From Deltaproteobacteria bacterium (lineage in GTDB: Bacteria > Myxococcota > XYA12-FULL-58-9 > JABJBS01), in contig JABJBS010000232.1 of the NCBI GenBank assembly GCA_018668695.1, positions 1 to 56,927 on the forward strand: DNA of 56,927 bases, read 5' to 3'. This document shows positions 10,643-52,891 of this stretch, one piece after another; position 1 is the stretch's first letter; every line of letters starts with the position of its first letter. Both the position numbers and the translations under genes were made by a program. The notes under the pieces were generated by a model. The model saw only the letters and a list, made by a program, of their open reading frames with translations. It did not search any database and was not told the DNA's origin.

Positions 10643-11143
10643 GACAATCCAAAGATTTCGGCAAAGCCTACGTGGCTTATTATAAGTGCGGAGCCGGCAC
10701 CGTATAAAATAATGAGAAACGAATAGCTCCGCTTCATTGGCCAAAGGCCTGAAGCTCTAGCGCCAACCATCAGCCCGAAAAGCCTCAATCGATAGGGCGT
10801 TCGAGAAGGCTACGCCGTATATACAACCACGAGCCCTTCGATACCCAATCGTCTTAACTTAAAGAGATAAATAAGAGCGTTCAAGGTACGAGCAATATTG
10901 TTCGACACACGCACCGGGCATGAATTGAACCATAAGTCGTTGTAATTAATGAAAATTTTACATCATTCCGTCGAAAAACCACAAGATCACCTTAAATTAA
11001 CATTGCGCACAATTTAATTGCGGATATCCTGCGAGGCTGTTAGACGGAGCCAAGTATTGTTTAAACTCCCCGCTAAACTGACCCACCGGTCATAACTCTT
11101 GTAATCGGTGGCTAAGCTTAGAAAACAAAATAGAGGCTCCCCC
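10643..11143. other. Intergenic region upstream of dbpA and the caleosin gene
   Basis: These 501 AT-rich bases separate divergent genes. I see no gene. It holds an inverted repeat TTAAATT (10992-10998) / AATTTAA (11011-11017) spaced by 12 bases, which could be a regulator site, and a small CCACCG/CGGTGG hairpin at 11083-11111 in the probable leader of the caleosin-like gene. Confidence 0.4.
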
Positions 11144-11788
11144 ATGAACGCTCGCAATCTATTAATCGCATTGACCATCTCAATGGTTTCCCTACTATCG
11201 ACTCAAGCATCAGCTCGTACGGCCCTCCAAAAGCACGTGGCATTTTTCGACCGGGCTGACGACGGCATGATTACCTGGACAGATACCTACGAAGGCTGCC
11301 GTGCACTCGGCTTCTCAATGTCTACATCTGCTGCGCTGGCAACTGCCATCAACGCCGGTCTCGGCAACAGCACCGGTGGAACAACTTTCACCATCAACGT
11401 GGCCAACATTCACCAAGGCAAGCACGACAGCGACAGCGATATTTACGACGAAGATGGTAACTACGTTCAGAAAAAGTTTGACGCACTCTTCGACCGGTTT
11501 GATACCGACAACGATAATGGGATCAGCGAAGACGAATTCAGCGTACTCTATTCTCGCAACTACGAGAGTGCTACCGGCAGTGTGGTGTCACGATTTGAAT
11601 TTGGCTTGCTGATGGACATAGCTGGCGAGACCCGAACAACGACCAGCACTTGGTCTGCTTGCTCTTACTGGTGGTGCCCAAGCTACACATCAACTTCTTC
11701 GTATAAAGTATTAACGCGTACAGACCTATCAGGCTTTTACGATGGCTCGTTGCTGTACGAATTGGCCGGCGAACAAGCTCCATTCTAA
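11144..11788 (+). CDS. Secreted caleosin-like Ca2+/haem peroxygenase family protein
   Basis: A 214-residue protein with a cleavable signal peptide (residues 1-24, ending TQASA). GAGG lies upstream of the ATG. The mature sequence follows the caleosin pattern. LQKHVAFFDRADDGMITW (His31, EF-hand) and the GCRALGF step come first. NIHQGKHDSDSDIYDEDG (His90, His94), VQKKFDALFDRFDTDN and the end motif YDGSLLYELAG follow. In plant and fungal caleosins the equivalent histidines bind haem for fatty-acid hydroperoxide-dependent oxygenation. The long oil-body hydrophobic hairpin and proline knot are missing. A Ser/Thr-, Trp- and Cys-rich insert (SACSYWWCPSYT) sits near residue 180. The enzymatic role is inferred. 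Confidence 0.85.
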   Translation: MNARNLLIALTISMVSLLSTQASARTALQKHVAFFDRADDGMITWTDTYEGCRALGFSMSTSAALATAINAGLGNSTGGTTFTINVANIHQGKHDSDSDIYDEDGNYVQKKFDALFDRFDTDNDNGISEDEFSVLYSRNYESATGSVVSRFEFGLLMDIAGETRTTTSTWSACSYWWCPSYTSTSSYKVLTRTDLSGFYDGSLLYELAGEQAPF

Positions 11789-50134: not shown

Positions 50135-50950
50135 ATGACGGACAAATCAAACCCTACTCCAGAACTTCTGCCTAACTCGTTTGAGAGCCGTGAGGCGCTG
50201 GTTCAGCATGTACGCAACATCACGTCCTGGACCACTGCAGAAGAGCCCAGCCACCACCTAGGCGGGCGCAATGCTGGTGAAGCGAAGCTCACCCAAATCA
50301 AACCCAAGGAGTACGGTAGAACGCGAAACCATTTGGCCGGTGACGTATCGCAACTATCGCCTTATATCCGCCACGGAATCATCGGTTTGGCTGAGGCGCG
50401 CGATGCTGCCTTGGCAAAAGTTGATAAACCCGCCCAGGCTGAGAAATTCGTCCAAGAGCTGGCCTGGCGAGATTTCTGGCAACGTATTTACGTCGCTCAT
50501 CCTGATTGGTTGTGGAACAACATTGAAGAATACAAAACGGGCTGGAACACAGCGGATTATGCAACTGAGCTTCCAGTCGACATCACCGACGGACATACGG
50601 GAGTAGCCTGCATCGACCATTTCATTCATGACCTAACTACAACCGGCTACCTGCACAACCATGCACGCATGTATTTGGCTTCTTATGTGGTCCATTGGCG
50701 AAGGGTTACTTGGCAGGCAGGAGCACGCTGGTTTCTGCACCACCTTCTCGACGGTGACCCGGCAAGCAACAATTTATCCTGGCAATGGATAGCGAGTACC
50801 TTCAGTTCGAAGCCCTACTTTTTTAACTTATCGAATGTTCAAAAATACGCAGACGACACCGTGAATACGAGTCCGAAAATGAACCAAGTACTGGACGCAT
50901 CCTACGAAGATTTGGAAGCTAGACTCTTTCCCCGCAAGGAACGGTCATGA
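50135..50950 (+). CDS. Stand-alone photolyase/cryptochrome FAD-binding domain protein
   Basis: A 271-residue protein equal to the C-terminal helical FAD domain of photolyases without the N-terminal antenna domain. Motifs: LSPYIRHGIIGLAEARDAAL, FVQELAWRDFWQRIYVAHPDWLW, GYLHNHARMYLASYVVHWRRVTWQAGARWFLHHLLDGDPASNNLSWQWIASTFSSKPYFFN. The LHNHARMxxASY...LLDGDPASNxLSWQW pattern is that of the short FAD-binding family. Its TGA overlaps the ATG of the next gene as ATGA, so the two proteins are coupled. Whether it repairs DNA or signals is unknown. Confidence 0.85.
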   Translation: MTDKSNPTPELLPNSFESREALVQHVRNITSWTTAEEPSHHLGGRNAGEAKLTQIKPKEYGRTRNHLAGDVSQLSPYIRHGIIGLAEARDAALAKVDKPAQAEKFVQELAWRDFWQRIYVAHPDWLWNNIEEYKTGWNTADYATELPVDITDGHTGVACIDHFIHDLTTTGYLHNHARMYLASYVVHWRRVTWQAGARWFLHHLLDGDPASNNLSWQWIASTFSSKPYFFNLSNVQKYADDTVNTSPKMNQVLDASYEDLEARLFPRKERS

Positions 50951-51369
50951 CTCAGTCTATTATCTGGGTTCATGAAGATGCCATGGGAAAACACCACCCT
51001 CTCTACACCGGTATCAAGATCGAAACAGACGCGTTCTACGTTTGGGATGAGGACCACCTCCGAGAAATGGATTACGGCTTTCAAAGGCTGGTGTTCATCT
51101 ATGAGACACTTTGTGAGCTGGGTGTTACCATCTATCACGGCAACATCGAGAAGGTTGCCGTGGAGCTTGCGAGGCTGAGGAGCGCTGAACATATTCGAAC
51201 CGCATTCAGTCCGAACCCCGTCATTCAAGCCGTGACCAAAGAGCTCGCCCAAACAGTCTCCGTCGTCACAATCGGTGATGAACCGTTTGTCACATTAAAA
51301 CGGCCAATCAAGCTAAAGCGTTTCTTCAGTTATTGGAAAAAAGCTCGACCTGTTCTTTTACGGGAATAG
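50947..51369 (+). CDS. Separate photolyase N-terminal (antenna/Rossmann)-like domain protein
   Basis: A 140-residue alpha/beta protein starting SIIWVHEDAMGKHHPLY, then AFYVWDEDHL, YGFQRLVFIYETLCELGVTIYHGNIEKVAVELARLRSAEHIRTAFSP and a FSYWKKARPVLL C-terminus. This is the order of strands and helices of the photolyase N-terminal domain that usually precedes the FAD domain. Here it is encoded after it. It starts with ATGA overlap and would pair with the FAD-domain protein to rebuild a photolyase. Its last 44 bases overlap the end of the convergent full-length photolyase gene. Confidence 0.75.
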   Translation: MTQSIIWVHEDAMGKHHPLYTGIKIETDAFYVWDEDHLREMDYGFQRLVFIYETLCELGVTIYHGNIEKVAVELARLRSAEHIRTAFSPNPVIQAVTKELAQTVSVVTIGDEPFVTLKRPIKLKRFFSYWKKARPVLLRE

Positions 51370-52891
51370 ATTTCTCAGTTCCGCTCTTCGTCGCACGTGA
51401 CCTTTGTCTCGGGTTGCGGGGTCTCCGGCGACTACCGTGCTTTAGATAAATCTGCTTCGCCTGTTCTTTTGCTTCGGGTGTCTTCCGGCATGCGTAAATT
51501 CGTTCCTTAGCTGTCTTTACTGCGCTGGCGTGTTGCACCAATGGCTCGGGGTAATCAATACCCATCTCGCAGCTTGCGTCTGTCTGAACCTGAGCTGGCA
51601 TTTGCGCGGGCTCGGCGAGGTACTTGCGAGGTACATCCGACAACTCTGGAACCCAATGTTTGATGAATTCGCCGTTCGGGTCTTGGTCTCGTACCTGCTT
51701 AGTGGGGGAATAGATACGCACCGCATTGATACCGGTCGTTCCACTTTGCATTTGCATCTGCGAGTAATGAATACCAGGCTCGAAATCTAAAAATTGTCTT
51801 CCTAAGAATAATCCGGTTGGCCGCCAGTGCAACCAAAGGTGGTAGCTGGCAAAGCTTACCAACATCGCTCGCATCCGGAAGTTAATCCAGCCCGTAGCAA
51901 CCAGCGCACGCATACAGGCATCGACCATCGGGTAACCGGTCCTCCCAGCCTTCCAAGCCTCAAACCGTTCCTCGTTAGGCTCCTCACTGCGCATTCCATC
52001 GTAAACCCGAGCAAGGTTACGGTGTTCAATTTCAGTTTCGTCTTCGAACTTTTGCATGAAATGACAATGCCAGCGGAGACGCTTTTCAAAACTCGCCAAT
52101 GAGGTGAGCCAAGTCTTTCCGATATCGTCACCGGCGGCCCTCCACTGCTTGAGCTGCTCTCGGCGCGCTACCGTGGTCTGGTAGACTGTCTTAATCGAAA
52201 TACAGCCGTAGGCCAGGTATGGGCTGAGCCTGCTGCAACCAGACCAAGCAGTAACCGGGCTGGACATATCCGTTCGGTAATTCTCACCGCGGCTGTCGAG
52301 GAATGAGTTGAATACTTTATGCGCTTCCCGCGCGCCGCCAAGCTGAACTTGCAAATCCAACGCCTTCTTGACCGGTTCTTTTCTCCACCGCGGGGGGATA
52401 AGTGCAGGATAGAGCTGGTCGGGTGTTTGAGATAGCGGACTTTTCATCCTTCGTGCCCACTTACCTGCCCACCCATCTCTTTTCTTGAGCGGCCGAAAAA
52501 TTCCGTGTTGAGCAATTTCATTCCAGTCCACCCCCGAGTTCCGGGCCCAACTCGCTATTTTCTGGTCACGCTCGTAGGTGGCATTGTTTCCAGTTTCCTC
52601 GTGGCTCCAAATAGCTTCGAACGGAATCTCGGCATGCAATTCCTCCAGGACCTGGAGAGCGTCACCCTTCACCCTCAAGAGTCCTGCCCCCATGTCACGA
52701 AGCCTGGTGTCTAGCTCGCTTAGGCATTGCTCCAGAAAGATTCCGTCCCGTTCCCCAAATTCCGCGGCTTCCTGAATAATCGGCTCATCGATGTAGAGGC
52801 AGATCACCGAACCTCGATTTGCTGCCTCGTACAGGGGCTGATGGTCTTCGACCCTTAGGTCCCGCTTGAACCAAACCAATTGAGTAGACAT
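51326..52891 (-). CDS. Full-length cryptochrome/deoxyribodipyrimidine photolyase family protein
   Basis: A 521-residue flavoprotein with an antenna domain (QLVWFKRDLRVEDHQPLYEA, then SVICLYIDEPIIQ) and a FAD domain (SPYLAYGCISIKTVYQTT, EKRLRWHCHFMQKFED, WKAGRTGYPMVDACMRALVATGWINFRMRAMLVSFASYHLWLHW, GIHYSQMQMQSGTTGINAVRIYSPTKQVRDQDPNGEFIKHWVPEL). This resembles the cryptochrome/class I photolyase layout. The Arg/Lys-rich C-terminal tail (HGSRRRPRNPRQRSRATKSG) may bind nucleic acid. CPD repair or signalling cannot be separated by eye. It faces the split pair, with 3' ends overlapping by 44 bases. Confidence 0.9.
   Translation of the reverse strand: MSTQLVWFKRDLRVEDHQPLYEAANRGSVICLYIDEPIIQEAAEFGERDGIFLEQCLSELDTRLRDMGAGLLRVKGDALQVLEELHAEIPFEAIWSHEETGNNATYERDQKIASWARNSGVDWNEIAQHGIFRPLKKRDGWAGKWARRMKSPLSQTPDQLYPALIPPRWRKEPVKKALDLQVQLGGAREAHKVFNSFLDSRGENYRTDMSSPVTAWSGCSRLSPYLAYGCISIKTVYQTTVARREQLKQWRAAGDDIGKTWLTSLASFEKRLRWHCHFMQKFEDETEIEHRNLARVYDGMRSEEPNEERFEAWKAGRTGYPMVDACMRALVATGWINFRMRAMLVSFASYHLWLHWRPTGLFLGRQFLDFEPGIHYSQMQMQSGTTGINAVRIYSPTKQVRDQDPNGEFIKHWVPELSDVPRKYLAEPAQMPAQVQTDASCEMGIDYPEPLVQHASAVKTAKERIYACRKTPEAKEQAKQIYLKHGSRRRPRNPRQRSRATKSGTEKSIPVKEQVELFSNN

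Follow-up and report, generated by a model that had tools for sequence, protein, structure and literature searches.

Caleosins are lipid-oxidising proteins that bind calcium and haem, and are most familiar from the oil bodies of plants. Those of plants and fungi are haem peroxygenases located in membranes or oil droplets, and an N-terminal H-domain is found in the H-type caleosins only. The canonical lipid-droplet caleosins, both H- and L-type, carry a hydrophobic lipid-binding segment, often with a proline-rich motif (PMC6309107). Two lines of work bear on what such proteins do. In the caleosin of A. flavus, mutation of the haem histidine His85 abolishes activity, and deletion of the lipid-binding segment, residues 126-140, yields a soluble protein that keeps its peroxygenase activity (PMC5808235). 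In Arabidopsis, 2-HOT is made by alpha-DOX1 and CLO3 working one after the other, in a pathway that couples a maker of hydroperoxides with a caleosin (PMC6914826). Bacterial caleosins were reported in 2018 from Sorangium cellulosum; these carry both histidines as well as an EF-hand, and lack an H-domain (PMC5957377). In the literature that we searched, which left out most subscription papers, neither exported bacterial caleosins nor caleosin fusions were described, and we found no assay of any bacterial caleosin.

The window, that is, the whole stretch of 56,927 nucleotides analysed here, comes from an uncultured, myxobacterium-like bacterium and encodes a protein of 214 residues that belongs to the caleosin family PF05042. 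With the plant and fungal CLO/PXG proteins (EC 1.11.2.3) it shares the profile match, both haem histidines, the EF-hand region and the C-terminal FYDG motif. It differs from them in having a predicted Sec signal peptide instead of a hydrophobic lipid-binding segment or H-domain, a first EF-hand that is degenerate and a second that is canonical, and a Cys-containing hairpin insert. Its likeness to the S. cellulosum CLO/PXG-like proteins lies in its bacterial, and indeed myxobacterial, source, the EF-hand region, the two histidines and the lack of an H-domain (PMC5957377). The protein resembles a natural version of the soluble deletion form of the A. flavus caleosin, but one that would be sent outside the cytoplasm. 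A preliminary description of the gene held that caleosins were known only from plants, algae and fungi; the Sorangium report makes that statement outdated, and the claim of novelty built on it too strong. What appears to be new, within the literature searched, is an exported caleosin without the oil-body hairpin.

The gene and its product

The reading frame given in the preliminary description stands as drawn (Table 1), and the spacing of a Shine-Dalgarno-like AGAGG, seven bases ahead of the ATG, favours that start over an upstream GTG at 11108. Caleosin identity, for which a profile search had been proposed as the check, is likewise secure: the match scores 126.7 bits (cut-off 27) and aligns residues 25-157 with positions 3-142 of the profile. 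The same profile is matched by all 26 aligned relatives, and by nothing in 14 control genomes. The motifs named at the outset are all present, HVAFFD (residues 31-36) along with the two listed in Table 1. A search of NCBIfam with the 214-residue protein gave no model above its cut-off, and a sequence search of the PDB returned generic EF-hand matches only, with no caleosin entry.

Table 1. The caleosin gene and the parts of its product, in coordinates of the window
Feature	Position	Strand	Basis
Shine-Dalgarno-like AGAGG	11132..11136	+	sequence reading
Caleosin-family gene, 214 aa precursor	11144..11788	+	Pfam PF05042, E 1.1e-36
Sec-type signal peptide (predicted), residues 1-24, predicted cleavage ASA/R25	11144..11215	+	hydropathy and A-x-A rule
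H31, first haem-ligand position (predicted)	11234..11236	+	kept in 25/26 bacterial members
First EF-hand loop DRADDGMITWTD, residues 36-47, degenerate	11249..11284	+	Ala at position 3, Asp at 12
GNSTGGTTFTINV, residues 74-86, replacing the oil-body hydrophobic/proline-rich segment	11363..11401	+	alignment with CLO1; hydropathy
NIHQGKHDSDS, residues 88-98	11405..11437	+	motif scan
H94, second haem-ligand position (predicted)	11423..11425	+	kept in 25/26 bacterial members
Second EF-hand loop DTDNDNGISEDE, residues 120-131, canonical	11501..11536	+	Pfam EF-hand_8, 2.7e-7 at 110-138
CSYWWC, residues 173-178, in a hairpin insert unique to the window protein	11660..11677	+	26-member alignment; model strands 162-171, 180-191
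C-terminal family motif FYDGSLLYELA, residues 198-208	11735..11767	+	alignment and motif scan

The missing oil-body hairpin is borne out by hydropathy, the best 19-residue mean of the mature protein being 1.13, against 2.05 in Arabidopsis CLO1; in the alignment with that sequence a different segment takes the place of the proline knot (Table 1). The putative Sorangium-like relatives L044 and L045 have a more hydrophobic central helix, with 19-residue values of 1.83-1.85. An H-domain is also absent, and the 24 residues of the signal peptide are all that precede the caleosin domain. In the hairpin insert, a disulphide within CSYWWC is possible.

The gene is flanked by a DEAD-box helicase gene on its upstream side and by genes for DUF1971 and a nitroreductase on its downstream side; as these neighbours are on the opposite strand, the caleosin gene forms no operon with them. 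No oxylipin genes adjoin it. An argument for function from gene neighbourhood was dropped, as the neighbours of the window gene and those of its exported relatives are unrelated. Far downstream, reading by eye, we note two adjacent photolyase/cryptochrome-like genes on opposite strands (50135-50950, plus strand; 51326-52891, minus strand).

Haem histidines, EF-hands and the predicted fold

Which residues has the bacterial family held on to? In alignment with Arabidopsis CLO1/PXG1 (245 residues), a comparison to be read as a lead only, we take H31, H94 and H90 to be the counterparts of H70, H138 and H134. The preliminary description proposed haem histidines at residue 31 and at residues 90 and 94. 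H31 and H94 are indeed conserved, even in fast-evolving members, whereas H90 is replaced in most relatives; it was ruled out as an axial ligand, H94 being the counterpart of CLO1 H138. The EF-hand that had been placed at the FFD motif fared similarly. The motif and loop are in place by the first histidine, but the loop is degenerate at positions 3 and 12, and the canonical loop at residues 120-131 had been overlooked. Across the family the first loop is canonical in 10 of 26 members and the second in 9 of 26, and canonical forms of both are missing from L044 and L045. All but one of the 26 members retain H31, and all but one retain H94, whereas the EF-hand loops decay freely; the contrast points to selection on the histidines, not on calcium.

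A structure prediction had been suggested as a check on the EF-hand, and confident AlphaFold2 models of the window protein (pLDDT 88.6, pTM 0.79) and of its relative L041 (pLDDT 90.7, pTM 0.83) both contain four successive helix-strand-helix units that are EF-hand-like. The best structural neighbours in the PDB are calmodulin, aequorin, coelenterazine-binding protein and sarcoplasmic Ca-binding protein. Most of the length aligns with these four-EF-hand proteins, yet TM stays below 0.42, rmsd is above 10 A and E is no better than 2.9e-3, so that, despite the equal order of units, the models do not match the known PDB fold of a calmodulin-like protein. We infer from the models that the caleosin domain would be a divergent four-EF-hand protein with a packing of its own, and that the "single EF-hand" of the plant proteins would be one of four units. 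Similar predicted folds are found in two uncharacterised BFVD proteins, A0A3G4ZVQ5 of Edafosvirus (TM 0.64) and A0A3G5A5K6 of Harvfovirus (TM 0.62), which on this modelled likeness are possible giant-virus caleosins; a search of viral contigs gave no sequence relative of the window caleosin.

Need the protein be an enzyme at all? Four EF-hand-like units, structural neighbours that are EF-hand proteins, if only at TM below 0.42, and a canonical loop at 120-131 are what one would expect of an exported calcium-binding protein that binds a lipid or other ligand without acting on it, its histidines being structural or binding another metal. It is, however, the two histidines and not the loops that the family has kept, and we think a non-enzymatic EF-hand protein rather unlikely.

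Export

The preliminary description called a Sec signal peptide, and the N-terminus has the expected parts: a mean KD of 2.68 over residues 6-15, followed by ASA at 22-24. This and the other signal peptides considered here were called by hydropathy and the A-x-A rule, not by a trained predictor. The predicted mature N-terminus, RTALQKH31, aligns with the first residues of cytosolic relatives such as L044 and L045, which begin at MTPLQTH and have no signal peptide; the signal peptide is therefore an addition ahead of a complete domain. Judged from these features, export via Sec is very probable. One might instead suppose that the N-terminal helix stays uncut as a membrane anchor, leaving the domain on the outer face of the inner membrane. 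The positive charge of the N-terminus is a single Arg, the cleavage site comes from a simple rule, and the AlphaFold2 model draws the N-terminus as one helix, residues 3-23. But the clean ASA/R site at the end of that helix is also where the caleosin domain starts, and the hydrophobic core is short (19-residue mean 1.65), so that an uncut anchor seems improbable.

Signal-like N-termini are found in 8 of the 26 aligned members. Besides the window protein these are L009 and L032-L036, from the surroundings of the Elusimicrobia genome NORP122, and, more weakly, L013 of Kofleriaceae MAG_26. All have an export signal before the caleosin domain, but most of these relatives differ from the window protein in having long extra N-terminal regions, they do not group with it in the tree, and L035 and L036 each lack one histidine. 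The window protein pairs instead, with support of 95/82, with an unexported paralogue encoded on another contig of its own genome (L002:1489-2172, minus strand; G000:C322); this second caleosin has 227 residues, is 43% identical to the window protein, has no clear signal peptide and has two canonical EF-hand loops. In the maximum-likelihood tree of the caleosin domain in the bacterial family, whose deep branches are poorly resolved, the branches with good support require the export label to have changed three times or more. Signal peptides, as predicted from sequence, arose at least three times within the bacterial family. As a separate observation, several different secreted proteins (L009, L032, L035, L078 and L083:4595-5977, minus strand) share long stretches rich in Ala, Pro and Leu behind the signal peptide, which may be a common sorting or pro-region.

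Possible peroxide chemistry and the bacterial family

What might a caleosin do outside the cytoplasm? Fusions with a DyP peroxidase or an alpha-dioxygenase tie bacterial caleosins to peroxide chemistry. In relatives of the NORP122 genome, secreted proteins of 1151-1312 residues (L078:4940-8875, minus strand; L079:3204-6656, plus strand) consist of a signal peptide, a full-length fatty-acid alpha-dioxygenase (PF03098; PDB 4hhr, 1.1e-76) and a degenerate caleosin domain, which in the full-length proteins falls just below the Pfam cut-off; similar fusions occur around L039 and L040. Because the caleosin domains fused to alpha-dioxygenase have lost one or both haem histidines, these fusions support a functional link, not catalysis by the caleosin domain. 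In a relative of a Labilithrix genome, a DyP-type peroxidase (8re3, 2.4e-46) is followed by a caleosin domain with both histidines (L043:1216-3273, minus strand, the same as L090:7483-9570, minus strand). An alpha/beta-hydrolase fusion in Anaeromyxobacter RBG_16_69_14 was rejected, as only a short hydrolase start is in frame and no frame continues.

Unlike the alpha-DOX1/CLO3 case, no alpha-dioxygenase-type or animal haem peroxidase was detected in the genome of the window, but the search was without a match in the controls too and is not proof of absence. The genome does encode a divergent lipoxygenase-like protein with no clear signal peptide (L047:1096-2895, minus strand; G000:C308; PF00305, 1.7e-17). 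A lipoxygenase as obligate partner was rejected, PF00305 being found in one of five caleosin genomes, against 57 of 195 Myxococcota genomes overall.

We favour, with some reserve for the chain as a whole, an exported haem peroxygenase that acts on lipid hydroperoxides outside the cytoplasm. The protein is a PF05042 member with both haem-histidine positions kept, and cutting of the signal peptide after ASA, a well-supported step, would leave a domain of 190 residues in the periplasm or beyond. There H31 and H94 would bind haem b, and a lipid hydroperoxide would give one oxygen to the haem, by which a fatty acid would be hydroxylated or epoxidised; alternatively the hydroperoxide might simply be reduced to the alcohol. 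Calcium at the second EF-hand may stabilise or tune the fold. The role of the protein could be to detoxify peroxidised lipid of the outer membrane or the environment, or to make an oxylipin. Peroxygenase action on external hydroperoxides is plausible. A haem protein of other use, such as a bis-histidine electron carrier, a haem store or a peroxide sensor outside the cytoplasm, would equally have two conserved histidines and an export signal, and a ferrochelatase gene, though a housekeeping one, lies 4.7 kb downstream. We regard such a use as quite improbable, as the assayed homologues that PMC5808235 and PMC6914826 cite are peroxygenases without exception, and the conserved C-terminal FYDG motif, together with E152, suggests a role beyond ligation alone.

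The family is thinly spread among bacteria. It is present in 5 of 195 Myxococcota genomes, and a scan of GTDB genome contigs gave 12 loci, ten of them myxobacterial or from other Myxococcota, one from Elusimicrobia and one from a Gammaproteobacteria MAG. Among 97 relatives of the Elusimicrobia genome, 10 gave a caleosin match, which was strong in six, and matches were also found in 2/379, 11/145, 1/148 and 1/115 of the other genome sets, the taxonomy in these searches of relatives being taken from the centre of each search. The genomes of L042, L044 and L045, of 12.2-13.6 Mb, have one caleosin match each; it may be that the "seven genes" of the S. cellulosum report are a single gene seen in several strains, if these genomes are of the species they seem to be. 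A eukaryotic origin, by recent transfer or contamination, might be read into the patchy distribution and the far more numerous plant and fungal members, but it can safely be set aside: the 57 kb contig is bacterial in content (DEAD-box helicase, ferrochelatase and two-component genes), the GC across the gene, 0.45-0.49, is near that of its surroundings, the nearest sequence is the gene's own paralogue, a ribosome-binding site and a bacterial signal peptide are present, and relatives lie on apparently complete chromosomes of 12-13.6 Mb.

For the family at large, we tentatively propose a wider picture, one that we think slightly less likely than not. At least two phyla would export soluble caleosins as periplasmic or extracellular haem peroxygenases; the domain would be at root a four-EF-hand one, of which the single EF-hand of plants is the remnant of two pairs; and some bacteria would have used it to assemble enzymes of the alpha-dioxygenase-caleosin and DyP-caleosin types. 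Being small, soluble and exported, a bacterial caleosin of this kind offers a practical way to obtain a first structure and to put the two-histidine haem model to a clean test. The findings hint at a chemistry of lipid hydroperoxides in bacteria that is so far unexplored.
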